Source: Allobosea thiooxidans
Lineage (GTDB): Bacteria > Pseudomonadota > Alphaproteobacteria > Rhizobiales > Beijerinckiaceae
Length of the DNA stretch: 64,000 nucleotides
Reading direction: 5' to 3'
NCBI RefSeq assembly: GCF_900168195.1
Contig: NZ_FUYX01000016.1
Coordinates: forward strand, 1 to 64,000
The notes beneath the pieces are model-generated. The model was not told where the DNA came from, searched no databases, and worked only from the letters and a program-made list of their open reading frames with translations. This document shows, in pieces, positions 19,397 through 44,717 of the stretch; within the stretch, counting starts at the first letter, position 1, and each line of letters begins with the position of its first letter. The position numbers were made by a program, and so were the translations under genes.

Positions 19397-21719
<2,323 letters not shown>

Positions 21720-29307: not shown

Positions 29308-31158
<1,851 letters not shown>

Positions 31159-31175
31159 TTCGGGTCCTTCTCTGG

Positions 31176-32117
31176 TCAGATCACGCGGCGTGGGTCGAGG
31201 GCGTCACGCAGACCGTCGCCGATGAAGTTGATCGACAGCACGGTCAGGAAGATGGCTGCGCCCGGGAACAGGGCCCAGTGCGGGGCGGTGTCGAGTTGGT
31301 CCTTGGCGTCGAACAGCAGGCGCCCCCAGGTGGGGATGTCCGGCGGGAAGCCGAGGCCAAGGAAGGACAGGGTCGATTCGGCGATGATCGCCGAAGAGAC
31401 CTCGATCGTCGAGGCGACGATGACGGGGCCGAGGGCGTTGGGCAGGATGTGGCGCGTCATCTGGCGCAGCTTGGTCGCGCCCTGGGCGCGGGCTGCCTCG
31501 ACGAATTCCTTCTCGCGCAGCGAGAGGAACTGGGCGCGCACCAGCCGGGCCACCGGCATCCAGCGCAGGCCGCCGATGACGATGACGATCAGCACGAAGA
31601 CGCCGCCCTCGACGCCGAACACGGCCTTCAGCTGCTCGCGGAACAGATAGATGATCAGCAGCAGCAGCGGCAGCTGCGGCAGCGACAGGAACAGGTCCGT
31701 CACCCACATCAGCACGGGGTCGGCATATTTGCGCGACATGCCGGCGAAGGCGCCGATCAGGACGCCGACGATCGTCGCCACCACCATCGCGGCGAGACCG
31801 ACGGCGAGCGAGATGCGCCCGCCATACATCATCCGCGCCAGGATATCCTGGCCGAGGTCGTCGGTTCCGAACGGGTGCGACCAGGACGGACCCTGGAGCT
31901 GCGCCGAGAAGTCGATGTCGTTGATCGCGACCGGCCAGAGCCAGGGGCCGACGACGACGCCGATGATCATCAGGGCGAGCACCACCGTGCTGGCCATGGC
32001 CAGGCGGTGGCGTCGGAAGCGGCGCCAGGTCTCGCGCCCGGGCGAGACCGAGACCTGGCTCACAGCAGCGCCTGCAGCCGGCTCAGCTGAAGGAGATGCG
32101 AGGGTCGAGCCAGCCAT
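31176..32117 (-). CDS. peptide-type ABC importer permease (DppC-like)
   Basis: 313 residues with six membrane helices. It has the DppC N-terminal segment (ETWRRFRRHRLAMAS), the post-TM2 motif HPFGTDDLGQDILARMMYGGRISL and the coupling EAA loop EAARAQGATKLRQMTRHILPNALGP. Starting at ATG 32117 overlaps the DppB-like gene by 35 bp; a GTG at 32063 is an alternative. It pairs with the next gene to form the membrane channel. Confidence 0.92.
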   Translation of the reverse strand: MAGSTLASPSAEPAAGAAVSQVSVSPGRETWRRFRRHRLAMASTVVLALMIIGVVVGPWLWPVAINDIDFSAQLQGPSWSHPFGTDDLGQDILARMMYGGRISLAVGLAAMVVATIVGVLIGAFAGMSRKYADPVLMWVTDLFLSLPQLPLLLLIIYLFREQLKAVFGVEGGVFVLIVIVIGGLRWMPVARLVRAQFLSLREKEFVEAARAQGATKLRQMTRHILPNALGPVIVASTIEVSSAIIAESTLSFLGLGFPPDIPTWGRLLFDAKDQLDTAPHWALFPGAAIFLTVLSINFIGDGLRDALDPRRVI

Positions 32118-33042
32118 AAAGAATATCCGCGATGAGGTTGAAGAAGACGACCAGGCAGGAGAAGACGAAGGTCACCGCCATGATCACAGGCGTGTCGTTG
32201 GCGAGGATCGCGTCGATCAGCAGCGAGCCGATGCCGGGCACGCGGAAGATCTGCTCGGTGACGAGCGCGCCGCCGAACACGGCGGGCATCTGCAGCGCGA
32301 CCAGCGTCACGACCGGGATCAGCGCGTTGCGCGTGATGTGCCGAAGCGTGACCTTGCGCTCGCTGAGGCCCTTGGCGCGCGCCGTGGTGACGTAGTCGAG
32401 CCGGATGACGTCGAGCACGGCCGAGCGGACATAGCGGGTGTAGGAGGCCGCCTGGAACAGGCCGAGCACGGTGATCGGCATGATCGCCTGGCGGAACATC
32501 TCCCAGTACCAGCGCCAGCCGGTGGCGGCGATGTCGGAGCGATAGACGAAGGGGAACCAGTCCAGCGACACCGAGAAGATCAGGATGAAGAGCAGGCCGG
32601 TGAAGAAGGTCGGCAGCGAGAAGCCGACGAAGGCCAGCGTGTTGGCGATCTGGTCGAAGACCGAATAGGGCCGGGTCGCCGCGTAGATGCCGACGGGCAG
32701 CGCGACGCACAGTGCCAGGATCTGCGACGAGCCGACGACGAAGAGCGTGGTCGGCAGGCGCTGCAGGATCAGGTCGTCGACATTGATGCGGCTGGCGAAG
32801 GAGAAGCCCCAGTCGCCCTGGGCCATCGCGCTGAGCCAGCGCAGATAGCGCACCATGATCGGGTCGTTGAGGCCGAAGCTGGCGCGCAGCGCCTCGCGCA
32901 CCTCGGGTGGGACGTTGGGATTCGTCGCCATTTCCGAAAAGGGGTCGCCCGGCGCCATCGCCAGGACCGTGAACAGAATCACGCTGATGCCGAGCAGGCT
33001 CGGGATGGCGATAAGCAGCCGCCGTATCAGATATGTCGCCAT
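32083..33042 (-). CDS. peptide-type ABC importer permease (DppB-like)
   Basis: 319 residues beginning MATYLIRRLLIAIPSLLGISVILF, the standard DppB start. It has six helices and the EAA loop with DYVTTARAKGLSERKVTLRHITRNALIPV. It stands between the binding-protein gene and the DppC-like gene. The 149-bp gap upstream holds a strong hairpin, which probably lowers its expression relative to the binding protein. Confidence 0.93.
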   Translation of the reverse strand: MATYLIRRLLIAIPSLLGISVILFTVLAMAPGDPFSEMATNPNVPPEVREALRASFGLNDPIMVRYLRWLSAMAQGDWGFSFASRINVDDLILQRLPTTLFVVGSSQILALCVALPVGIYAATRPYSVFDQIANTLAFVGFSLPTFFTGLLFILIFSVSLDWFPFVYRSDIAATGWRWYWEMFRQAIMPITVLGLFQAASYTRYVRSAVLDVIRLDYVTTARAKGLSERKVTLRHITRNALIPVVTLVALQMPAVFGGALVTEQIFRVPGIGSLLIDAILANDTPVIMAVTFVFSCLVVFFNLIADILYGWLDPRISFS

Positions 33043-33149
33043 GAAGAACTTCTCTATGTGCGCGGCGGAGCCGCGAACGGAAAACCGGTTGCAGCCGGCC
33101 GCCCCTTGCGGCCTGCTGGCTGAAAGAGGGGAGCCGGTGCGATTGTCAA

Positions 33150-33180
33150 CCCCTCACGGCGCGCGATGCGCCGCGAGGGG
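33150..33180 (-). other. intercistronic hairpin between binding-protein and permease genes
   Basis: A stem of about 13 bp with one mismatch (33150-33162 against 33168-33180) and a 5-base loop, placed 11 bp after the binding-protein stop on the minus strand. There is no T-run. It is likely an mRNA 3'-end stabiliser or attenuator that leaves the binding protein more abundant than the permeases. Confidence 0.55.
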
Positions 33181-33191
33181 CGTATCTTGGC

Positions 33192-34979
33192 TTAGCTGCG
33201 ATACCAGGCCGCGATGTTCCAGCTGTCGACGTCCCAGCCGCTGTGGTCATGCGAGAGGTTGGTCGTCGATGCCGCCACGCGGGTGCGCGACAGGATCGGC
33301 AGGATGACGTTGGCCTCGCAGAAGATTTCGTTGACCTTGATCAGCAGCGCGGCGCGCTTGGCCGGGTCGAGCTCCTTCTGGGCGGCCTTGTAGGCCTCGT
33401 CGGCAGCCGGATCGGAGTAGCGCGAGACGTTGCGGCCCAGCCACTTGTTCTCCTTGTTGGCGATCTCCCAGGAGACGAACTGGTTGAGGAAACGCTCCGG
33501 ATCAGGCTGCGGCTGCGTCGTCGTGTACATCTCCATGTCGACATACAGCTTGGTGTAGGTGTCGGGGTTGGCGACGTCCGACGAGAAGAACACCGAGGCC
33601 GTGACCGACTTCAGCTCGAGATCGATGCCGGCGCGCTGGCAGGCCTGCTTGACGATGGCCTGGACCTTCTGGCGCGGGGCGTTGATCGAGGTCTGAAAGA
33701 CGTATTTGAGCTTCTTGCCGTCCTTCTCGCGGACGCCGCCCCAGCCCTTCTTCCAGCCGGCCTCCTCGAGGATCTTGTTGGCCTTGTCGATGTTGAACTC
33801 GTATTTGAGCTTCGGCGACTTGAACTGCTTGGGCTCGTTGACGAAGCTCGCGGTCGCGGTGCCGCCGCGGCCATAGATGAACTTCTGGATCGAGTCGCGG
33901 TCGATCAGCAGGTTGATCGCCTGGCGCACCGCCGGGTCCGACAGGGTCGGGTGCTTGGTCTTGACGCTGGAGCGCTCGCCATCGACCTCGGTCCAGGGAT
34001 CGGTCGTGTTCAGGATGATGAACTCGATGTCGCCAGACGGAACCGCGCTGATCCGGCCGCGACCACCGGTCTCCATGCGCTTGAGGACCTCGTCCTCGAC
34101 CTGCAGGTTCCAGGCGTAGTCGTATTCGCCGGTCTGCAGCACCGCACGGGCCGCCGAGACCGCGTCACCGCCGCCCTTCACCTCGAGCGTGTCGAAATGC
34201 GGCCGGTTCGCGACGTGGTAGTTCTCGTTGCGGGTGCCGGTCAGGATGTCGCCCGGCTTGAACTCCGCGAACTTGTAGGGGCCGGTGCCGACCGGCTTGA
34301 GGTTCGCCGGGGCCTCGCGCGACTTGGCGCCCTTGTACTCGCCGAAATGGTGCTTCGGGATGATCATGCCGGCGACGCCGACGAAGGGGTCGGCCCAGAA
34401 CGGCGTCGGCTCCGCGAAGACCACCTTGACGGTGAAGTCGTCGACCTTCTCGACCTTGATGTCCTTGTAGGCGCCGGTGGTGTAGGCGGCGGTCGCCGGA
34501 TCGGCTGCATATTCCCAGGTGAAGACGACGTCATCGGCCGTGAGCGGCTTGCCGTCATGCCACTTCACGCCCTGCTTCAGCTTCCAGACCACGACCGTGC
34601 CGTCTTCCGACAGGCCGCCATTGGCCTTGCTCGGGACTTCGGCGGCGAGCTGCGGAATGAGGTTGCCTTCCTTGTCCCAGCCGGCGAGCGGCTCGTAGAA
34701 GATGCGCGAGGCGATCTGGTCCTTGGTGCCCGAGGCGAAATGCGGGTTCAGCAGGGTCGGGGCCTGCCAGAGCAGCATCTTGAGCGGGCCACCGCCGCCG
34801 GCCTTGGTCGGCTTGTAGTCGAGCGTGGCATTCGCCATCGCGACGTCGTTCCAGGCGAGGATCTGGCTCGCCAGCGGCGCGGCGATGCCGACAGCCGCCA
34901 TTCTCTTGATGAAGGAGCGACGCGACAGCGTGCCTTCCTTCACATCCGCGACGAGTCCGCGGATTTCCTGCTCATTCAT
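33192..34979 (-). CDS. peptide-type ABC importer substrate-binding protein, Tat-exported
   Basis: 595 residues of SBP family 5 (DppA/OppA type). The N-terminus has a long n-region and a twin-arginine motif SRRSFIKR (19-26), so export by Tat is likely, which is unusual but known for this family in alphaproteobacteria. The family signature is seen in WKLKQGVKWHDGKPLTADDVVFTW, and later PVGTGPYKF. Shine-Dalgarno GGTGGAGG precedes the ATG. It is the first gene of the operon. The ligand (peptide, opine or other) is not predictable. Confidence 0.92.
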   Translation of the reverse strand: MNEQEIRGLVADVKEGTLSRRSFIKRMAAVGIAAPLASQILAWNDVAMANATLDYKPTKAGGGGPLKMLLWQAPTLLNPHFASGTKDQIASRIFYEPLAGWDKEGNLIPQLAAEVPSKANGGLSEDGTVVVWKLKQGVKWHDGKPLTADDVVFTWEYAADPATAAYTTGAYKDIKVEKVDDFTVKVVFAEPTPFWADPFVGVAGMIIPKHHFGEYKGAKSREAPANLKPVGTGPYKFAEFKPGDILTGTRNENYHVANRPHFDTLEVKGGGDAVSAARAVLQTGEYDYAWNLQVEDEVLKRMETGGRGRISAVPSGDIEFIILNTTDPWTEVDGERSSVKTKHPTLSDPAVRQAINLLIDRDSIQKFIYGRGGTATASFVNEPKQFKSPKLKYEFNIDKANKILEEAGWKKGWGGVREKDGKKLKYVFQTSINAPRQKVQAIVKQACQRAGIDLELKSVTASVFFSSDVANPDTYTKLYVDMEMYTTTQPQPDPERFLNQFVSWEIANKENKWLGRNVSRYSDPAADEAYKAAQKELDPAKRAALLIKVNEIFCEANVILPILSRTRVAASTTNLSHDHSGWDVDSWNIAAWYRS

Positions 34980-35453
34980 TGATAGCCTCCACCTTCAAAC
35001 AAAATACATCCCCGGCACCTTCGCGCCGTGTTCTCGTTGATGGCCGCAGCAAGGCATGTGCCAACGAAGGCGTCAACTGTGCAGCGCAGGGCAAATCCGC
35101 GCTCGCAGCGGAGCCACGCCCGAAAACTCGGAGGCATTTGAACGAATTTGCCTCGATTTGCCTGCGTTTTGCAACTTTATTCCGCTCGTCCGGCGAAGAC
35201 GACAGTTTTCTTTCCGTTAAGAACGTCGCGGCCGCCGCCGCTGCCCCGGGGCGCCGGGTTTGGCCTCGCGCGCGAGCGCCCGCGCGATCTTCAACTCAAT
35301 CTTCGCCGAACGGGCGGAGGCCATTGCGCGCTCGCGATGACTCCCGCCGCGTCGCCCGCGGGAGCGCTTGACTCGTTCGTGCCAAGAATGGAATGTTTGT
35401 TCCACGAAGCGGGAAGCCTGAACCATTCCTGCCGTTTCCGGGAGGCAGGACCC
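34980..35453. promoter_or_regulatory. 474-bp divergent intergenic region
   Basis: It separates the minus-strand peptide importer from the plus-strand SDR gene. An A/T-richer part near 35130-35220 contains the short repeat ATTTGCCT twice, 10 bp apart, and is the best promoter candidate. From 35225 to 35380 it is very G/C rich. No gene or known operator is recognised. The SDR frame runs open through part of it, but that sequence does not look like protein. Confidence 0.45.
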
Positions 35454-36254
35454 TTGCCGCAAGCCAGTCCCTTCGGCCGTGATCTCGACGGCAAGGTCGC
35501 CCTCGTCACTGGCGCGAGCCAGGGGTTGGGCGAGGCGATCGCCCGCGAATTCGCCGATCGCGGCCTGCGCTCGCTGCTGCTGACCGGGCGCAACCCGGCG
35601 CGCGGCGAGGCCGTGGCGGAAAGCCTGCGTGCCGCCGGCTGCGACGCCCGGTTCCACCGCGCCGATCTCGCCGACATGAAGTCGGTGCAACAGATCGTCC
35701 CGGCGGCGGAGCTCGCCTTCGGACGGCTCGACATTCTGGTCAATGCCGCCGGAGATACCGACCGCGGCAGCATCTTCGACACCACGCCCGAGCTCTACGA
35801 GCGCATCATGGCGGTGAATCTGCGCGCGCCCTTCTTCCTGATCCAGGATACGGCCGAGCTGATGCGCCGGCAGGGCATCGAGGGCACAATCGTCAACATC
35901 CAGTCGATGTCCGCGCATGGCGGCCAGCCCTTCCTCTCGGCCTACAGCGTCTCGAAGGGCGCGCTTGCCGTGCTGACGAAGAACGCTGCCTATGGGCTGC
36001 TCAAACACCGGATCCGCGTCAACGGCCTCAATATCGGCTGGATGGCGACGCCGGGCGAGGACGCGATCATGAAGCTGCGCCACGACGCTAAGGACGACTG
36101 GCTGGAGGAGGCGGCTGCCGGCCAGCCCTTCGGCCGGCTGATCGATCCGCGCGAGGTCGCCAAGGCCGTCGCCTATCTGGCCTCGGCCGAATCCGGGCTG
36201 ATGACCGGCGCCAATATCGATTTCGACCAGAATATTCTCGGCGCGCACGACTAG
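35454..36254 (+). CDS. SDR family oxidoreductase
   Basis: 266 residues from TTG 35454, chosen because GGGAGG lies eight bases upstream and the length then fits classical SDRs. Longer upstream starts give unrelated sequence. It has the cofactor motif TGASQGLGEAI, the structural NAAG, the catalytic Ser in IQSMSAHGG, and YSVSK. The C-terminus ends ANIDFDQNILGAHD. It probably oxidises or reduces a hydroxyl of a polyol or sugar, with NAD(P). It opens a co-directional series with IolG-like, IMPase-like and AfuABC-like genes. Confidence 0.87.
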   Translation: MPQASPFGRDLDGKVALVTGASQGLGEAIAREFADRGLRSLLLTGRNPARGEAVAESLRAAGCDARFHRADLADMKSVQQIVPAAELAFGRLDILVNAAGDTDRGSIFDTTPELYERIMAVNLRAPFFLIQDTAELMRRQGIEGTIVNIQSMSAHGGQPFLSAYSVSKGALAVLTKNAAYGLLKHRIRVNGLNIGWMATPGEDAIMKLRHDAKDDWLEEAAAGQPFGRLIDPREVAKAVAYLASAESGLMTGANIDFDQNILGAHD

Positions 36255-36315
36255 CGCGCCGGCCATAATCGCAGCAGGACGGCTGCCGGACCAGATCATA
36301 GGACAGAAGACGACC

Positions 36316-37314
36316 ATGAAGATCGGATTGCTGGGCGCCGGCCGCATCGGGCGCATCCACGGGCTGAACGTCGCCGCGCGCGGCGATGCCGAGCTGGTCG
36401 CCGTCACCGACGCTGTGCCGGAGGCTGCCGCCTCGCTCGCCGCCGCTGCCGGCGCCAAGGCCGCGAGCGCCGAGGCGATCCTCGCCGATCCGGCGATCGA
36501 TGCCGTGCTGATCTGCACCCCGACCGACACCCATGCCGATCTGATCGAGCAGGCGGTCTCGGCCGGCAAGGCCGTGTTCTGCGAGAAGCCGGTCGATCTG
36601 GACGCCGCCCGCATCCGCCGCTGCCTCGCGACGGTCGAGAAGTCCGGCAAGCCATTGATGATCGGCTTCAACCGCCGCTTCGATCCGAATTTCGCCGCGC
36701 TGGAGAAGCGGCTGCGCGCGGGCGAGGCCGGCGCGATCGAGCTCGTCACCGTGATCTCGCGCGATCCCGCGCCGCCGCCGGTCGATTACGTCAGGCGCTC
36801 CGGCGGGCTCTTCCGCGACATGATGATCCATGATTTCGATATGGCGCGCTTCCTCCTGGCCGAGGATCCGGTCGAGGTCTTCGCGCTCGGCTCCGCCCTC
36901 GTCGACAAGGCGATCGGCGAGGCCGGCGACGTCGACACCGCCGCCGTGATCATGAAGACGGCTTCGGGCCGGATCGCCCAGATCTCGAATTCGCGCCGCG
37001 CGACCTATGGCTACGACCAGCGCATCGAAGTCCACGGCTCGAAGGGTATGCTGCGCGCCGGCAACATCCATGAGACCACCGTCGAGATCGCGACCGGACA
37101 GGGCTTCCGGGCCGATCCGGTGCAGAATTTCTTCCTGGAGCGCTACGCCGCCGCCTATCGCGCCGAGCTCGACGCCTTCATCGCCGCCTGCCAGGGCAAG
37201 GCGGCCGCCTCGCCGACCGGCCTCGACGGGCTGAAGGCGCAGATCCTGGCCGATGCCGCGACCGAATCCGCGCAGACCGGCAAGCCCGTCCGCGTCGATC
37301 TGGGGGGCAAGTGA
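36316..37314 (+). CDS. inositol 2-dehydrogenase-like oxidoreductase (Gfo/Idh/MocA)
   Basis: 332 residues. It has the Rossmann motif MKIGLLGAGRIGRIHG, EKP at 90-92 (catalytic Lys91), and the pair Asp168/His172 in GGLFRDMMIHDFD, equivalent to the Lys97/Asp172/His176 triad of Bacillus subtilis IolG. IolG oxidises myo-inositol to scyllo-inosose with NAD. Related polyols or sugars are possible substrates, so the exact activity is open. It sits 61 bp after the SDR gene and overlaps the phosphatase gene (TGATG), which suggests joint action on one substrate. Confidence 0.86.
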   Translation: MKIGLLGAGRIGRIHGLNVAARGDAELVAVTDAVPEAAASLAAAAGAKAASAEAILADPAIDAVLICTPTDTHADLIEQAVSAGKAVFCEKPVDLDAARIRRCLATVEKSGKPLMIGFNRRFDPNFAALEKRLRAGEAGAIELVTVISRDPAPPPVDYVRRSGGLFRDMMIHDFDMARFLLAEDPVEVFALGSALVDKAIGEAGDVDTAAVIMKTASGRIAQISNSRRATYGYDQRIEVHGSKGMLRAGNIHETTVEIATGQGFRADPVQNFFLERYAAAYRAELDAFIAACQGKAAASPTGLDGLKAQILADAATESAQTGKPVRVDLGGK

Positions 37315-38096
37315 TGACTCCGGCGGAGCGCGATCTGCGCTATTACGCGGCTCTCGGCCTCGCGGCCGAGGCGAGCCATCTGGCGCTCGGCTATTTCAAC
37401 AAGCGCGAGTCCCTCGGCATCACCATGAAGGGCGCGCAGGACTGGCTGACCGTCGCCGATGGCAAGGTCGAGGATTTCCTGCGCCGCCGGCTTTCGGAAC
37501 TCTTCCCGAACGACACTGTCATCGGCGAGGAGGGTGGCGGCGAGGCTTCGGACGCCGTCTGGATCCTCGATCCGATCGACGGCACCGCCAATTTCGCCCA
37601 TGGCGACCGCAACTGGTGCATCTCCATCGGCTTCCTCGCGAACCGCAAGCCGGAAATCGGCGTCGTTGCGGCGCCGGCCCTGGGCGAGTTTTATGCGGCG
37701 CGGCGTGGCGCTGGCGCGACCCTGAACGGAGATCCGATCAAGGTCTCCGGTGCGGCCGATATCGCCCGCGCCTCGGTCGAATTGGGATGGTCGACCCGCA
37801 TTCCCGCGCAGAACTACCTGAAGGTGATCGAACGCGGCTACACGGCGGGCGCCGCGATGAAGCGCGGCGGCTCGGGCACGCTCGGCCTCTGCCATGTCGC
37901 CAATGGCTCGAGCGATGCCTATGCCGAGCTGCACATCAATGCCTGGGATGTCGCTGCCGGCCTCGTCATCGCCGGCGAGGCGGGGGCCCATCTCAACGAC
38001 TTCTTCGCCGGCGAGGGCATCGCCAAGGGCAACCCCGTCCTGTGCTGCACGCCGGAATTGGCTCCTGTGCTGAGGGAGATCACAGGAATCGCTTAG
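37314..38096 (+). CDS. inositol monophosphatase family protein
   Basis: 260 residues from ATG 37314, which overlaps the dehydrogenase stop. The metal-binding motifs are GEE (71-73), WILDPIDGTANF (83-94) and, near the end, NAWDVAAGLVIAGEAGA, so the Mg-dependent IMPase fold is complete. The family includes inositol-1-phosphatase, histidinol-phosphatase, fructose-1,6-bisphosphatase and PAP phosphatases. Coupling to an IolG-like gene points to a phosphorylated cyclitol or sugar. No signal peptide is seen, so it is cytoplasmic. Confidence 0.9.
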   Translation: MTPAERDLRYYAALGLAAEASHLALGYFNKRESLGITMKGAQDWLTVADGKVEDFLRRRLSELFPNDTVIGEEGGGEASDAVWILDPIDGTANFAHGDRNWCISIGFLANRKPEIGVVAAPALGEFYAARRGAGATLNGDPIKVSGAADIARASVELGWSTRIPAQNYLKVIERGYTAGAAMKRGGSGTLGLCHVANGSSDAYAELHINAWDVAAGLVIAGEAGAHLNDFFAGEGIAKGNPVLCCTPELAPVLREITGIA

Positions 38097-38199
38097 CCGG
38101 CGCCGTATTTCATTGATCTTTCGCGAGCATTCGTCTCAGTTTCACGGCAGTCACAAGAACCGGACATAGAAGCCGGGTTCTTCGATCAGGGAGGTTATC

Positions 38200-39237
38200 A
38201 TGCAGTCGAAATCCTGGCTCAAGGCCGGTCTATTTGCCGCCCTCGCCACAGCGGCCTTTGCCGCGACCCCGGCGCGCGCCCAGGGCTCGCTCGTCATGTA
38301 TTGCGGCGTCCAGGAGGAATGGTGCCGTGCCATGTCGACGGCCTTCGAGAAGGAGACCGGCATCAAGGTCGCGATGACCCGCAAATCGGCGGGCGAGATC
38401 TATGCCCAGCTCAAGGCCGAGTCCTCGAACCCGCGCGGCGACATCTGGTGGGGCGGCACCGGCGATCCGCATCTGCAGGCGGCGGAGGAGGGGCTCACCC
38501 TCGAATATGAATCGCCGAAGAACAAGGAGCTGCATGGCTGGGCGCTCGACCAGTGGAAGGCCGCCAAGCAGCGCTCCGTCGGCATCTATGCCGGCGCGCT
38601 CGGCTTCGGCTTCAACACCGAGCAGATCAAGGCGAAGGGCATCCCCGAGCCGAAATGCTGGGCCGACCTGCTCAATCCCAAGCTGAAGGACGATGTCCAG
38701 GTCGCCGACCCCAACTCGTCGGGCACCGCCTACAACCTGCTCGCCACGGTCGTGCAGCTGATGGGCGAGGAGAAGGGTTTCGACTATCTGAAGCAGCTCC
38801 ACAAGAACGTCAGCCAGTACACCAAGTCGGGCGCCGCGCCCGCCAAGGCTGCCAGCCTCGGCGAGACCGCCGTCGGCATCGTCTTCATCCATGACGCGGT
38901 GGTCTTCGCGGTGCAGGGCGACCCGATCAAGCCGGTCGCGCCCTGCGAGGGCACGGGCTACGAGATCGGCTCGATGTCGATCGTCAAGGGCGCGCGCAAT
39001 CTCGACAACGCCAAGAAGTTCTATGATTGGGCCCTGACCCCGGCCGCGCAGGCGCTCGCCGCTCCCGCGAAGTCCTATCAGGTGCCATCGAACAAGGCGG
39101 CGCCGGTGCCGGCGCAGTCGCCCAAGATGGATCAGATGAAGCTGATCAACTACGACTTCGTGAAATACGGCTCCTCGGCCGAGCGCACCCGCCTGCTCGC
39201 CAAGTGGGACAAGGAAGTCAAGGCGCTGCCGAAGTAA
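38200..39237 (+). CDS. AfuA-like ABC importer substrate-binding protein
   Basis: 345 residues with a Sec signal peptide cleaved after ARA (about residue 27). It belongs to SBP family 1/6, close to AfuA and the so-called iron(III) binding proteins. VMYCGVQEEWC, then DIWWGGTGDPHLQAAEEG, match the AfuA pattern (WFGGTxDPxxQAA), where this loop contacts the ligand phosphate. Actinobacillus AfuA was shown to bind glucose-6- and fructose-6-phosphate rather than iron. The tyrosine set expected of ferric-binding proteins is not evident. It has a strong Shine-Dalgarno, GGGAGG. Confidence 0.82.
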   Translation: MQSKSWLKAGLFAALATAAFAATPARAQGSLVMYCGVQEEWCRAMSTAFEKETGIKVAMTRKSAGEIYAQLKAESSNPRGDIWWGGTGDPHLQAAEEGLTLEYESPKNKELHGWALDQWKAAKQRSVGIYAGALGFGFNTEQIKAKGIPEPKCWADLLNPKLKDDVQVADPNSSGTAYNLLATVVQLMGEEKGFDYLKQLHKNVSQYTKSGAAPAKAASLGETAVGIVFIHDAVVFAVQGDPIKPVAPCEGTGYEIGSMSIVKGARNLDNAKKFYDWALTPAAQALAAPAKSYQVPSNKAAPVPAQSPKMDQMKLINYDFVKYGSSAERTRLLAKWDKEVKALPK

Positions 39238-39250
39238 GGCGACGTCGCTC

Positions 39251-39414
39251 CGGCGTGTTTCCGGATAGCCTCGGAAACACGCCGTCACCCCGGGCTTGGA
39301 CCGGGACCCATGCCTGAACCTTGTCCGGATGCGCTCCGGCATGGGTCCCGGATCTCCACGGAGTTGACCTTGGCTCGATCGAAGATCGAACCCGAGGGCA
39401 GCGCCCGGGATGAC
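39251..39414 (+). repeat. intercistronic hairpin plus palindromic repeat element
   Basis: A 13-bp perfect stem (39251-39263 with 39272-39284) follows the binding-protein stop by 14 bp. Directly after it lies a palindromic element, 39284-39414, starting GTCACCCCGGGC and ending GCCCGGGATGAC, with an inner arm pair around ACCCATGCC and GGCATGGGT. The hairpin resembles a terminator without T-run. The second part is of the dispersed palindrome type common in Rhizobiales. Confidence 0.65.
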
Positions 39415-39503
39415 GTTGGAAGTTCGGGCGCAGGACAAGGACTTGGCTGTGAAAACCGGAGCAACCGGTTCAGGCCAACGGGAAAGGTGAGGGCAGGGCA
39501 AGA

Positions 39504-41723
39504 ATGGCACCGGCGACGCGTTTCGTGCTGCTGATCGGCTGGCTCGGCTATGCGCTGATGCCCTGGTATCTCGTCGAGGGCATGGGCCTGACGAGGTGGG
39601 GCTGGCTTGCCGAATATCCGTTCGGCAAGGCGGGCAGCGCGCTGGCGCTCGCGCTCTCCGGCCAGACGCCCTGGCTCCTGCCGGTCGGGATCGCGCTCGC
39701 GGCGGTGACGTTGTTCTGGGGCAGCCAGGATCGCCAGCGCACGGCGGCCGTGCTGATCTGGGCCGGCGCGCTCGGCATGCTGCTGTTCTTCGCCCAGGCC
39801 TTTGCCATCGTGCTGAAGGATCAGGGCATCGCCTGGCTCGCCGCCCTGCTTGGCGGCGCCGGCGCAGCGCAGCGCGGCATCGGCGGCGGCGCCTTCGTCA
39901 CGCTGCTCTCGCTGCTCTTCCTGCTTTGCCACGGCCTGGCCTATCGCGGCATCTGCCGCGGCGACCTCTTCACGACATCGACGATCGGCCTGATCATCCT
40001 GCTGATCGGCATCTTCATCTTCTTCCCGGTGGCGATCATCCTGAAGAGCGCGCTGGTCGACCAGAACGGCGCCTTCGCGCTTTCGGCCTTCGTCGAGCGC
40101 TTCCTCGATTCCTCGATCTGGGGGCTGGGCTGCGTCACCAGCAACACCAATTGCGGCGTTGCGTGGAACACGCTGATCCTCGCCGTGCTCTGCGGCGTCA
40201 TCACCACTCTGCTGGGGTTGGCCTGCGCGCTGCTGATCCTGCGCACCGGCATGCCGGGCAAGCGCATCATGCGCGCGCTCACCGTCCTGCCGATCATCAC
40301 CCCGCCCTTCGTGATCGGCCTCGCGCTGATCCTGCTGTTCGGCCGGGCGGGCGCCGTCTCGACGCTGCTCTACGAGTGGTTCGACGTTCCACGCTCGCGC
40401 TGGCTCTACGGCCTGCCCGGCGTGCTGCTGGCGCAGGTGCTCGCCTTCGCGCCGATCGCCTTCCTCGTCCTGATCGGCGTCGTGCAGGGCATCTCGCCGA
40501 GCCTCGAGGAAGCCTCGCAGACGCTCGGCGCCAAGCGCTGGCAGACCTTCCGCACCGTGACCTGGCCGCTGCTCAAGCCCGGCATCGCCAATTCCTTCCT
40601 GCTCGGCTTCGTCGAGAGCATGGCCGATTTCGGCAATCCGCTGGTGCTTGGCGGCAATTTCGAGGTGCTCTCGACCAAGATCTTCTTCGCGGTCGTCGGC
40701 GCTTCCTACAATCAGGGGCAGGCGGCGGTGCTCGCCATCGTGCTGCTCGCCTTCACGCTCGGCGCCTTCTGGGTGCAGCAGCGCTGGCTCGGCGACAAAT
40801 CCTACACGACGGTCACCGGCAAGGGCGACTCCGGCCTGCCGACGCCGCTGCCGCGCCGGATATCCTGGCTCTCCGTCGCGGTGATCGTGCCCTGGGTGGC
40901 GCTGACCGTGGTGATTTACATCGTCATCCTGGTCGGCGGCTTCGTCCGCAACATGGGGCGCGACTACACGCCGACGCTGCAGCACTACCTCACCGGCTTC
41001 GCCATAGACTTCAGCGACGGCATCTATTTCCAGGGCTCGGCCTGGTCGTCCTTCTTCACCACCGTGAAGGTCGCCGCGATCTCGGCGCCGCTGACGGCGC
41101 TGATCGGCCTGCTCACCGCCTATCTGCTGACGCGCCAGCGCTTCCGCGGCCGCTCGACGCTGGAATTTGCGACGATGCTCTCCTTCGCCATCCCCGGCAC
41201 GGTGCTCGGCGTCGCCTATATCCTCGCCTTCAACGTTCCGCCGGTGGAAATCACCGGCACGGGTCTGATCCTCGTCATCGCCTTCGTCTTCCGCAACATG
41301 CCGGTCGGCGTCCGCTCCGGCATCGCCGGGCTGTCGCAGATCGACAAGAGCCTGGACGAGGCCTCGACCACGCTGCGCGCCCGCAGCTTCACCACGCTCT
41401 GGCGCGTCGTGCTGCCGCTCCTGAAGCCGGCGCTGGTCTCGGCCCTGGTCTACTCCTTCGTTCGCTCGATGACGGCGGTCAGCGCGGTGATCTTCCTGGT
41501 TTCGGCCGAGTACAACCTCTCCACCGCCTATATCGTCGGGCGCGTCGAGGCGGGCGAGTTCGGCCTCGCCATCGCCTATTCCTCGGTGCTGATCGTCTTC
41601 ATGGCGCTCGGCATCGCCCTCATCCAGCTCGGCGTCGGCGAGCGCAAGCTCGGCCGCCGCAAGCTCATCCCGCTGTCGAGTTCGGCCGCCGAGCCGCTCA
41701 AGCCAGGAGTCGCCGCATCGTGA
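39504..41723 (+). CDS. AfuB-like ABC importer permease, two fused permease domains
   Basis: 739 residues with two binding-protein-dependent transport domains in one chain, as in AfuB, FbpB and SfuB. The first EAA loop is EEASQTLGAKRWQTFRTVTWPLLKPG (about residue 335), the second DEASTTLRARSFTTLWRVVLPLLKPA (about 625). About 12-14 helices include an N-terminal group of extra segments. Its stop overlaps the ATPase start (GTGA). A large unrelated frame overlaps it in another register and is a shadow. Confidence 0.92.
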   Translation: MAPATRFVLLIGWLGYALMPWYLVEGMGLTRWGWLAEYPFGKAGSALALALSGQTPWLLPVGIALAAVTLFWGSQDRQRTAAVLIWAGALGMLLFFAQAFAIVLKDQGIAWLAALLGGAGAAQRGIGGGAFVTLLSLLFLLCHGLAYRGICRGDLFTTSTIGLIILLIGIFIFFPVAIILKSALVDQNGAFALSAFVERFLDSSIWGLGCVTSNTNCGVAWNTLILAVLCGVITTLLGLACALLILRTGMPGKRIMRALTVLPIITPPFVIGLALILLFGRAGAVSTLLYEWFDVPRSRWLYGLPGVLLAQVLAFAPIAFLVLIGVVQGISPSLEEASQTLGAKRWQTFRTVTWPLLKPGIANSFLLGFVESMADFGNPLVLGGNFEVLSTKIFFAVVGASYNQGQAAVLAIVLLAFTLGAFWVQQRWLGDKSYTTVTGKGDSGLPTPLPRRISWLSVAVIVPWVALTVVIYIVILVGGFVRNMGRDYTPTLQHYLTGFAIDFSDGIYFQGSAWSSFFTTVKVAAISAPLTALIGLLTAYLLTRQRFRGRSTLEFATMLSFAIPGTVLGVAYILAFNVPPVEITGTGLILVIAFVFRNMPVGVRSGIAGLSQIDKSLDEASTTLRARSFTTLWRVVLPLLKPALVSALVYSFVRSMTAVSAVIFLVSAEYNLSTAYIVGRVEAGEFGLAIAYSSVLIVFMALGIALIQLGVGERKLGRRKLIPLSSSAAEPLKPGVAAS

Positions 41724-42784
41724 AGGCCGGTCCCGCTTCCGTCGAGTTCCGCAACGTCTCGATGCGCTACGGCGCGGTGACGGCGGTCGACGATGTCAGC
41801 TTCACCATCGAGGCCGGCAAGCTTGTGACGCTGCTCGGCCCCTCCGGCTGCGGCAAGACCACGACTCTGCGCATGATCGCCGGCCTCGAGATCGCCAGCG
41901 AGGGCCAGATCCTGATCGGCGGCAAGGACGTGACCAAGCTCTCGGCCGCGGACCGCGACGTCTCCATGGTCTTCCAGTCCTATGCGCTGTTCCCGCATAT
42001 GAGCGTGCTCGAGAACGCCGCCTATGGCCCGACCGTGAAGGGGCTCGGCAAGGAGCAGGCGAAGCAGATGGCGCTGGAGAAGCTGGCGCTCGTCGGCCTC
42101 AAGGGCTTCGAGAGCCGCTACCCTTCCGAACTCTCCGGCGGCCAGCAGCAGCGCGTCGCCGTGGCGCGCGCCCTCGTGCTCGAGCCGCAGGTGCTGCTCT
42201 TCGACGAGCCGCTTTCCAATCTCGACGCCAAGCTGCGCCGCCGCGTCCGAGAGGAGATCCGCGAACTGCAGCAGGACCTCAACCTCACCGTCGCCTACGT
42301 CACCCACGATCAGGAGGAGGCGCTCGCCGTCTCCGACCGCATTATCGTGATGTCGAATGCCAGGATCGCCCAGGAGGGCGCGCCGCGCGACCTCTACGAG
42401 CAGCCGGCGAACGCCTTCGTCGCCGACTTCATCGGTGACGCCAACCTGATCGACGTGACGGTGAAGGCGGTTGCGGACGGGCGCGCCGATGTCGGCATCG
42501 GCTCGGCCACGGTCTCGCTGCCGGCGCGCGGACTCGGTACCGGCCCCGCCAAGGTCGCGATCCGGCCGGAGGCGCTGCTGCTCGGCGCTGCGGGGCAGGC
42601 CGGGGCGCTGCCCGGCACGATCCGCAAATGCGCCTATCTCGGCAACCATCTCGACATCATGGTCGAGACCGAGGTCGGCGAGCTCTTCGTCGTGCAGTAC
42701 GGCGTCCGCGATCTGTTGGAACAGGGCGCGCCGGTCGCGGTTTCCTTCGCAAAGTCCGGCGTGACGCTGATCCCGCCGCTCTGA
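41720..42784 (+). CDS. AfuC/PotA-like ABC importer ATPase
   Basis: 354 residues from GTG 41720, overlapping the permease stop. Walker A is GPSGCGKTT (40-48), Q-loop near 86, signature LSGGQ (138-142) and Walker B LLFDEP (159-164), with a C-terminal TOBE domain after about residue 250. It energises the fused permease. The region upstream stays open in this frame for 700 codons, but it is antisense-like shadow sequence in the permease gene. Confidence 0.93.
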   Translation: MKAGPASVEFRNVSMRYGAVTAVDDVSFTIEAGKLVTLLGPSGCGKTTTLRMIAGLEIASEGQILIGGKDVTKLSAADRDVSMVFQSYALFPHMSVLENAAYGPTVKGLGKEQAKQMALEKLALVGLKGFESRYPSELSGGQQQRVAVARALVLEPQVLLFDEPLSNLDAKLRRRVREEIRELQQDLNLTVAYVTHDQEEALAVSDRIIVMSNARIAQEGAPRDLYEQPANAFVADFIGDANLIDVTVKAVADGRADVGIGSATVSLPARGLGTGPAKVAIRPEALLLGAAGQAGALPGTIRKCAYLGNHLDIMVETEVGELFVVQYGVRDLLEQGAPVAVSFAKSGVTLIPPL

Positions 42785-42800
42785 GCCCTCCTGACGTGTC

Positions 42801-42831
42801 GATCGCGGGCTGCTTCCCCTGGCCCGTGATC
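42801..42831 (+). terminator. stem-loop after the AfuC-like gene
   Basis: A 10-bp RNA stem with one G-U pair (42801-42810 with 42822-42831) and an 11-base loop, 16 bp after the stop. No T-run follows, so termination would be weak and read-through into the Na/Pi gene is possible. Confidence 0.35.
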
Positions 42832-42992
42832 GCGTTGGGCGGTGGCTGTTGCTGAAAAACCGGTGGCGCCAAAAATACGAAAGCTGCCGCATTATCAGCA
42901 CTTTCGGTGCTTATTTCTGTTGAGTTGGCTAATCAAAAATTGATAGATTTCGCCGACGATCGTCACCTGAATCGGGGAAAGACCGCACGAAA

Positions 42993-44717
42993 ATGGCCAC
43001 GGAGAGCGCAACCAACATCCTGATCCACCTCGCTGGCGGCGTCGCGCTGCTGATCTGGGCGGTCAGATTGGTGCGAACCGGTGCCATGCGCGCGTTCGGT
43101 TCCCAGCTCCGGCATGCCCTGCAGAGCTTCACGCGCAACCGTTTTGCGGCCTTCGGCAGCGGCATCGTCGTGACCATGGTGCTGCAGAGCTCGACCGCGA
43201 CGACCCTGCTGGTCTCCTCCTTCGCCGGCCAGGCCCTGATCGGCTCTGCGATGGCGCTCGCCGTGCTGCTCGGCGCCAATCTCGGCACGGCACTTGCGGC
43301 TTTCGTGATCTCGATGGATCTCGGCTGGCTCTGGGGGCTCTGCATCGCCATCGGCGTCGCGATGTACCTGTCGAGCGAGGCGATGGAGCGCCCGCGCAAT
43401 ATCGGCCGCGTCCTCGTCGGCATCGGCCTGATCCTGCTTTCGCTGATCAACCTGAACACCGCGGCGGCGCCGCTCGCGCAGTCGCCGACTTTCCGGGTCG
43501 TCCTCGGCGCTATCGGCAGCGAGCCGCTGCTCGCCGTTCTCGTCGCTGTCGCCGCGACCTGGATGGTGCATTCCAGCATCGCGATCATCCTGCTGGTCGC
43601 GACGTTCGCCTCTTCCGGGCTGTTCCCGCCGGCGACCGCGCTGACGCTCGTCATCGGTGCCAATCTCGGCAATGCGTTGATCCCGGTGCTCGACCAGCTC
43701 GGTGCGCCCGCCGCCCAGCGCCGCGCCGCCGTCGGCAACCTGCTGACCCGGGTGCTGCTGGCGCTCGCCGTCATCCCCTTCGTCGGGCCGCTTTCGGCCT
43801 GGCTCGTCAGCCTGCCGTCGGTGGATTCGCGCCTGGCCATCGAGTTCCATGTCGCGCTCAACTTCGTCGGCGCCCTGATCTTCCTGCCCTTCGTCGGGCC
43901 GATCTCCGCCCTGGTCGAGCGCTTCATGCCGGGCAAGGAAGAGACGGCCGAGGCCGTGAGCCCGCGCTATCTCGACCCGAACGCCCTCGACAGCCCGACC
44001 GAGGCGCTCGCCGGTGCGATGCGCGAGGCGCTGCGGCTCGGCGACCGCGTCGAAGGCATGCTGCGCGACACCATGACCCTGCTGGAGAAGGACGAGCTGA
44101 AGCTCTCTCGCGCCATCGCCCAGGCTGATGACGGGGTCGACAGCATCCACGAGTCGATCAAGCTCTATCTGGTCAAGGTCTCGCGCAACGAGCTGACCGA
44201 CGAGGAGAGCCGACGGCTGTTCGAGATCATCACCCTGATCACCAATCTCGAGCATATCGGCGACATCATCGACAAGAACCTGCGCGAGCTCGCCGAGAAG
44301 AAGATCCGCAAGCGCTTTACCTTCTCGCCCGAGGGACTGGCCGAAATCCGCGACTTCCACCAGCGTGTCGCCTCGGCGCTGTCGCTGGCGCTCAACGTCT
44401 TCGCCACGCGCGACATCGTGCTTGCCCGCCAGCTCTTCGCCGACAAGGCGGCGATGCGCGAGGCCGAGCGCCATGCCGCCGACAGCCATTTCCAGCGCCT
44501 GCGCTCCGGCCGGCCGGAATCGATCGAGACCAGTGCGATCCATCTCGACATCATCCGCGATCTGAAGCGCATCCACGGCCATATCGTCTCGATCGCCTAT
44601 CCGATCCTGGAGAGCGCCAACGAACTGCGCGAGAGCCGTCTGCGCGAGACGAAGGCGGCAGCCGAGCAGCGCGAGATGCCGTCCGTGCTCATCCCCGCCC
44701 CGCATTCGGGTGGTTAG
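42993..44717 (+). CDS. Na/Pi cotransporter family protein with PhoU-like domain
   Basis: 574 residues. The membrane part (about 10-310) holds the two inverted NaPi repeats, with LQSSTATT in the first, HSSIAII at the matching place in the second, and GANLGTAL/GANLGNAL nearby. A PhoU-like helical domain follows (about 345-550). The layout equals E. coli YjbB, which was shown to export phosphate when the cell has excess. It is 208 bp after the AfuC-like gene and in the same direction. Here export of phosphate freed by the IMPase-like enzyme would be a sensible role; this is inference. Confidence 0.88.
   Translation: MATESATNILIHLAGGVALLIWAVRLVRTGAMRAFGSQLRHALQSFTRNRFAAFGSGIVVTMVLQSSTATTLLVSSFAGQALIGSAMALAVLLGANLGTALAAFVISMDLGWLWGLCIAIGVAMYLSSEAMERPRNIGRVLVGIGLILLSLINLNTAAAPLAQSPTFRVVLGAIGSEPLLAVLVAVAATWMVHSSIAIILLVATFASSGLFPPATALTLVIGANLGNALIPVLDQLGAPAAQRRAAVGNLLTRVLLALAVIPFVGPLSAWLVSLPSVDSRLAIEFHVALNFVGALIFLPFVGPISALVERFMPGKEETAEAVSPRYLDPNALDSPTEALAGAMREALRLGDRVEGMLRDTMTLLEKDELKLSRAIAQADDGVDSIHESIKLYLVKVSRNELTDEESRRLFEIITLITNLEHIGDIIDKNLRELAEKKIRKRFTFSPEGLAEIRDFHQRVASALSLALNVFATRDIVLARQLFADKAAMREAERHAADSHFQRLRSGRPESIETSAIHLDIIRDLKRIHGHIVSIAYPILESANELRESRLRETKAAAEQREMPSVLIPAPHSGG

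Follow-up and report, generated by a model that had tools for sequence, protein, structure and literature searches.

Which compound does the importer of a seven-gene operon in Allobosea thiooxidans take up, and what becomes of it in a cell that encodes two dehydrogenases and a phosphatase beside the transporter? The operon lies at positions 35,454 to 44,717 of the 64,000-nucleotide stretch analysed here (the window), which is located on contig C31 of the 5.37 Mb source genome. It encodes a short-chain dehydrogenase/reductase (SDR), the inositol 2-dehydrogenase IolG, a phosphatase of the inositol monophosphatase family (IMPase), an AfuABC-type ATP-binding cassette (ABC) importer and a NaPi-PhoU protein (Table 1). 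The initial annotation proposed that an intact phosphorylated polyol or sugar is imported, dephosphorylated inside the cell and oxidised. Comparison with relatives supports this outline, and the substrate can be stated more sharply as inositol phosphate, rather than a polyol or sugar, because of linkage to inositol catabolism (iol) genes and an IolR-type operator. Judged from sequence, the operon probably imports inositol phosphate intact, most likely the monophosphate, dephosphorylates it inside the cell and delivers inositol for oxidation by IolG, all under IolR-type control.

The importer is repeatedly linked to inositol genes in relatives. Genome-collection loci are the best 80 of 210 relatives found; the closest records are from Bosea, with binding proteins 97% identical to that of the window. 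At least one of iolB, iolC, iolD and iolE lies within the fetched stretch in 27 of the 80 loci, often with an RpiR regulator. Conservation of the gene set, which the initial annotation named as a check, holds for the IMPase (75 of 80 loci) and fails for the NaPi gene (14 of 80), which stands outside the widely conserved set. The arrangement seen most often among iol-linked loci has an iolB-iolE-iolD-iolC-RpiR operon running divergently from SDR-IolG-IMPase-importer. The iolB, iolE, iolD and iolC genes of one such relative (L018) pass the cut-offs of the NCBIfam models TIGR04378, TIGR04379, TIGR04377, NF047869 and TIGR04382. Other arrangements are a co-directional iolDEBC-IMPase-importer set (L086) and convergent iol operons 3' of the ATPase (L131, L132). 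Over all sources, importer and iol genes occur together in 50 loci, 48 of them distinct as two pairs are identical. These 50 fall into 23 ordered signatures, an upper bound, since some differ merely through contig ends or a sub-threshold gene; by eye about ten are truly distinct. A binding-protein tree of 102 proteins was built from 121 dereplicated rows, minus 22 removed manually (close copies from Bosea and Microvirga, a short broken copy and a truncated one), plus three references. The iol-linkage label switches 11 times on this tree, a count that tandem copies sharing a locus label may inflate; the tree was made by a quick method and 38 of its 99 inner branches are open.

Further samples were counted by locus and by genome. 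In a dereplicated set of 100 distinct loci, with gene presence counted at over 40% identity, IMPase is present in 61, IolG in 29 and SDR in 22. An even draw of 99 same-family genomes, including the source genome, contained the binding protein (E up to 1e-60) in 30 and iolD above cut-off in 49. Genomes with the binding protein carry iolD in 24 of 30 cases, as opposed to 25 of the 69 others (Fisher p 7e-5, relatedness not corrected). The two genes lie within 15 kb of each other in 7 of these 24 genomes, where a uniform model that assumes two copies, 30 kb and 4.5 Mb predicts about 0.32; linked genomes number 8 of 30 when iolC of G094 is counted. In a class-wide draw of 240 genomes the binding protein (E up to 1e-80) was found in 21. 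Besides the source genome and G026, this leaves 19 genomes, and in four of them (G151, G154, G225, G327) the stretches read show iol linkage. One other family, f128, has the binding protein in 19 of 23 genomes, and iol genes adjoin it in 14 of 18 neighbourhoods read; G341 is not among the 18, each genome has up to four copies, of which one or two were read, and short contigs may hide more linkage.

The operator is the second link to inositol. In Caulobacter, IolR of the RpiR family controls inositol genes that carry GGAA-N6-TTCC in their promoters, and expression rose when one copy in the iolC promoter was mutated; the motif was not found at Bradyrhizobium japonicum inositol genes (Boutte et al., PMC2597717). 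The exact sequence GGAATGTTTRTTCC occurs once in the source genome, at 35390-35403 of the window. In relatives the operator lies 62-137 bp upstream of the matched SDR start, and in most loci with adjacent iol genes it is positioned between RpiR and SDR. It is found within 300 bp upstream of SDR in 15 of the 22 SDR-bearing dereplicated loci, as against 148 of 20,000 random windows; these loci are related and hence not independent events. It is also retained in close relatives of the window that have no iol operon alongside (L009, L010, L012, L013, L015, L016, L019, L021, L028 and L042; for L010 and L012 the upstream stretch is only 1.1-1.5 kb long). The operator carries weight because of this conserved position upstream of SDR, not because of copy number. 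With the GGAA-N6-TTCC pattern in place, the window promoter would belong to the alphaproteobacterial IolR regulon.

The remaining inositol pathway of the source genome is encoded on contig C15, where iolC, iolE and iolB lie beside iolD. The operon there (L128, C15:122500-142400, in the order RpiR-iolC-iolD-iolE-iolB) is 48-73% identical to the iol genes of L018, has a GGAACAGGTATTCC site between RpiR and iolC, and is preceded by a DctP-type binding protein gene. IolG of the window is the sole match to TIGR04380 above cut-off in the genome, and the C15 enzymes therefore appear to depend on the window operon for their first step, unless another dehydrogenase serves. Gfo/Idh/MocA-type matches under the IolG cut-off are present on the same contig as the importer, at 19751-20332 (minus strand) and, past the window, at C31:95592-97762. 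A peptide-type ABC transporter operon (family names by reading alone) occupies 29308-34979 on the minus strand, where L018-like relatives carry iolBEDC-RpiR. The window lineage seems to have swapped out the catabolic half of the locus and retained the importer half plus the operator.

The best solved chains for the binding protein are AfuA (4r72 plus three more entries), 8x1a and P5PA, with identities of 47.3%, 46.0% and 40.7%, respectively. His205, Asp206 and Glu229 of AfuA, the homologue-defining residues of Sit et al. (PMC4546632), correspond to H231, D232 and E255 of the window protein. Tyr103, Gln269, Ser148-Gly149-Thr150 and Ser184-Gly185 are also kept (pocket roles from PMC4546632 and PMC8427247). 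Changed positions, in AfuA numbering, are S9 to G, T11 to Q, N35 to K, G36 to S, S37 to A and S39 to E. The phosphate-side residues Ser37, Gly38, Thr60, Ser148, Gly149, Thr150 and Gly185 are all retained but Ser37 (Ala64 in the window protein), and S37A in AfuA weakens binding without abolishing it (PMC4546632). Such a pocket would suit a cyclic polyol phosphate. A paralogue of the binding protein, 62% identical, is encoded on contig C12 near a mannonate dehydratase gene and probably serves another substrate. Two or three AfuA-type binding proteins per permease-ATPase set were observed in L158, L061, L083, L064, L145 and L189, which suggests several ligands per importer. A 2-aminoethylphosphonate importer (phnS2, TIGR03261) was rejected (220.4 bits, cut-off 392.75).

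Annotation records point in another direction, as relatives are called 'iron ABC transporter permease' or afuA. The best NCBIfam match of the ATPase is a ferric transporter model, scored below its cut-off, and the top chain 8x1a is named an iron-compound-binding protein. A ferric-iron importer that stands beside unrelated enzymes by chance is nevertheless very improbable. AfuA was likewise deposited as an iron protein and binds glucose 6-phosphate (PMC4546632); 8x1a has the residues of AfuA at every pocket position named in PMC4546632 and PMC8427247; and the further chains named iron-binding reach at most 43 bits, compared with 312 for AfuA. The iron importer was rejected on the relatives of known ligand together with the pocket residues.

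Several observations weigh against inositol phosphate as the substrate. In the source genome the iol genes are not adjacent to the importer operon, and the window IMPase is one of eight PF00459 matches; IMPases are promiscuous enzymes. Seven of the 22 SDR loci have no exact operator at SDR, among them L018 and L025, which have a complete iol operon. Two GGAA-N6-TTCC copies, the number in the window, arise by chance in 16 of 100 shuffles, and a genome-wide operator search allowing two mismatches gave no excess (8 sites, 7 in the reversed control). In the 35 dereplicated IMPase loci without SDR and IolG, the exact operator was found upstream of the tested gene in two (L030, L043), and a one-mismatch form upstream of IMPase in four more. 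Among the 19 binding-protein genomes of the class-wide draw, 15 show no iol linkage in the stretches read. Sets of importer and IMPase that lack iol genes over the stretch read are found in Microvirga, Sinorhizobium (pSymB), Pantoea, Neorhizobium, Palleronia and Shinella, the last four with LacI or two-component regulators, and the importer of Paracoccus (L240) has no IMPase in the annotated stretch. The substrate of these iol-less importer-IMPase sets need not be inositol phosphate. The phosphate-side loop deviates from AfuA at positions 36, 37 and 39 (G to S, S to A and S to E). Hexose 6-phosphates would fit the pocket too: the sugar-reading residues of AfuA are conserved, and for this reason the pocket alone cannot separate them from inositol phosphate.

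These points bear on the alternative of an ordinary AfuABC importer of glucose or fructose 6-phosphate, in which IMPase would act on the sugar phosphate and the iol neighbours would reflect general sugar regulation. It draws on the conserved sugar-reading residues, on AfuA as the nearest solved relative with known ligand and on the many IMPase-bearing relatives without iol genes in the stretch read. It would not predict iol linkage repeated in several orders, an IolR-type operator or the placement here of the sole IolG above cut-off, and it is considered unlikely. Moreover, hexose phosphate inside the cell is metabolised without IMPase or IolG, so that neither enzyme would be required.

In Roseomonas gilardii plasmid pRo-1 (L213), iolB, iolE, iolC, RpiR and iolG are annotated, iolD is recognised by similarity, and the set is divergent to genes for the binding protein, permease, ATPase, inositol monophosphatase and a histidine-type phosphatase. 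Against PF00328 this phosphatase scores above cut-off, and against the AppA family phytase model below it (233.8 vs 585); its top two solved relatives carry the name phytase, and most of the others that of phytase or histidine acid phosphatase. RHGxRxP is present, and an upstream in-frame signal-peptide-like stretch is missed by the annotated start. Histidine phosphatases of this type carry a C-terminal HD; the L213 protein has SD at this position, and its activity is therefore not certain. A tblastn search with it against the collected loci matched its own locus only. L213 is the sole importer locus with a phytase-like phosphatase among those examined, and an Azospirillum relative of the phosphatase has no importer in its annotated stretch. 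In the source genome no phytase of PF00328 or PF02333 was found, cysteine phytases not being covered by the search, which also counts against the substrate proposed. With these reservations, there may be an alphaproteobacterial phytate-carbon module under one IolR-type circuit, comprising an AfuABC-type inositol monophosphate importer, IMPase, IolG, IolEDBC, in some members also a phytase in the periplasm, and a NaPi-PhoU valve that would vent the phosphate, which is set free in an amount equal to inositol. This wider reading, including the phosphate balance, is tentative and given slightly less than an even chance.

A different substrate was also considered, namely that the importer takes up an inositol glycerophosphodiester or some other phosphoinositol compound, which is cut inside the cell before IMPase acts. 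On a Palleronia plasmid (L239), the importer and IMPase genes are followed by one annotated as phospholipase C/glycerophosphodiester phosphodiesterase, which adjoins IMPase, a hint that diesters are used in that lineage. On the Neorhizobium plasmid pNCHU2750c (L238, typed conjugative), afuBC, yjbB, LacI, afuABC, IMPase and ugp genes lie together. Against this, none of the seven window genes encodes a phosphodiesterase, the Roseomonas locus carries in its place a phytase-like phosphatase, and the Palleronia and Neorhizobium stretches read have no annotated iol genes. Uptake of a diester is thus rated as quite improbable.

Under the preferred reading, uptake of inositol phosphate, the window genes would work as follows. 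Extracellular breakdown of phytate or phosphoinositides would leave myo-inositol monophosphate. In the periplasm the AfuA-type protein would bind this compound, and the fused permease and the ATPase would carry it in whole. IMPase would strip the phosphate, and IolG would oxidise inositol to 2-keto-inositol, the predicted substrate of the IolE, IolD, IolB and IolC enzymes of contig C15. SDR, which sits beside iol genes in relatives, is a predicted inositol-linked dehydrogenase and probably acts on an isomer of inositol or on a side product. An RpiR-family IolR would probably repress the operon through GGAATGTTTGTTCC until inositol is present, and NaPi-PhoU may export surplus phosphate.

The seven genes named in the initial annotation were all recovered on the plus strand of the window sequence, each frame without an internal stop, and their families were identified with Pfam and NCBIfam profiles. 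Lys91/Asp168/His172 of IolG and the overlapping start of IMPase, both noted earlier, are also present. The intergenic gaps from SDR to NaPi are 61, -4, 103, 266, -4 and 208 nt, and the 4-nt overlaps are those of the IolG/IMPase and permease/ATPase pairs. A GGAGG-like sequence precedes the TTG of SDR at 35454, whereas a start at the in-frame ATG of 35388 would overlap with the operator. IMPase has the metal motifs DPIDGT and WDVAAG, SDR has YxxxK, and the ATPase has Walker A, LSGGQ and Walker B. IMPase scores below the equivalog cut-offs of HisN (136.4 vs 275.15) and of the inositol-1-monophosphatase model PRK10757 (114.4 vs 332).

Table 1. Features of the operon and its promoter in the window
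Feature	Position	Strand	Basis
IolR-type operator GGAATGTTTGTTCC	35390..35403	.	50 bp upstream of SDR start; matches GGAA-N6-TTCC
SDR oxidoreductase	35454..36254	+	TTG start; NCBIfam PRK06198, 390.4 bits vs cut-off 240; best solved chain 4nim
IolG, inositol 2-dehydrogenase	36316..37314	+	TIGR04380, 449.6 bits vs cut-off 355; best chain 4hkt, an inositol 2-dehydrogenase
IMPase-family phosphatase	37311..38096	+	GTG start; PF00459, 187 bits vs 27
AfuA-type periplasmic binding protein, signal-peptide-like start	38200..39237	+	47.3% identical to AfuA; pocket residues
Fused AfuB-type permease	39504..41723	+	Two BPD_transp_1 stretches
AfuC-type ATPase with TOBE_2 domain	41720..42784	+	GTG start; Pfam/NCBIfam, motifs
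Weak terminator-like hairpin, ATPase/NaPi gap	42897..42911	+	8 such sites in region vs 5.1 in shuffles
NaPi-PhoU (YjbB-like) phosphate transporter, loosely associated	42993..44717	+	Na_Pi_cotrans plus PhoU domains

The last gene is less firmly tied to the others. NaPi lies 3' of the ATPase in 13 of the 80 genome-collection loci (11 Bosea, 2 Rhizobiales) and 5' of IMPase in L043. Elsewhere it was seen near the importer or in iol clusters (L145, L174, L194, L233), and yjbB lies by afuABC-IMPase in L238. A core role was rejected on its frequency (14 of 80 genome-collection and 8 of 100 dereplicated loci); the weak hairpin lies upstream of it. Escherichia coli YjbB is a phosphate exporter with the same NaPi plus PhoU architecture, and the window protein may export phosphate as well. 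The phosphate export of the initial annotation is retained insofar as NaPi recurs in several placements and is reduced to the role of a loose associate; a phosphate valve fits and is plausible, albeit weaker than the rest given the infrequent adjacency.

Bacteria are commonly assumed to remove all phosphate outside the cell and then to import free inositol. If the reading given here is true, this picture of external dephosphorylation would change for at least part of the alphaproteobacteria. An importer family controlled by inositol would take up whole inositol phosphate for use as a carbon source, and such bacteria could feed on a main organic form of phosphorus in soil. Genes annotated as iron transporters would be recast as inositol-phosphate or sugar-phosphate transporters. 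Whole uptake of inositol phosphate becomes a directly testable question.

The initial annotation stated that no system of this composition had been described. A term-based search of the open-access literature showed no paper linking AfuABC-type importers with inositol. The statement is nevertheless only in part correct, as KEGG has a module M00599, 'inositol-phosphate transport system' (PMC5237526, PMC8129789; its inoEFG genes in PMC12008989). Its substrate class matches that claimed for the window importer. M00599 is described as a binding protein, two permeases and an ATPase (PMC5237526), whereas the window permease is fused and its binding protein AfuA-type; the two are set apart by description only. 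Caulobacter has an RpiR-type IolR, GGAA-N6-TTCC and catabolic enzymes (IolC-E, IdhA) like those considered here. Its transporter IbpA-IatA-IatP carries free myo-inositol, with a binding protein annotated in the XylF superfamily, and no IMPase is mentioned in the parts available of the paper, whose authors speculate that an HlyB-family transporter may move inositol phosphates (PMC2597717). The pyridoxal 5-phosphate importer P5PA belongs to the same binding-protein family and largely shares the phosphate cradle. It has Leu105 and, at the positions of AfuA Asp206 and Glu229, Ala (PMC8427247), where the window protein has Gly (G132), Asp (D232) and Glu (E255); a pyridoxal phosphate importer was rejected on the absence of this signature. 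The window protein has His205, Asp206, Glu229 and Thr150 in common with AfuABC of Actinobacillus pleuropneumoniae and Citrobacter rodentium (PMC4546632) and differs from it by Ala64 for Ser37, G36 to S and S39 to E; the identity of 47.3% refers to the Actinobacillus protein. To the importer the window operon adds IMPase, IolG, SDR and the IolR-type operator, with iol linkage in relatives. The operon is best read as a variant of the AfuABC-type sugar-phosphate importer, with predicted internal dephosphorylation under IolR-type control.

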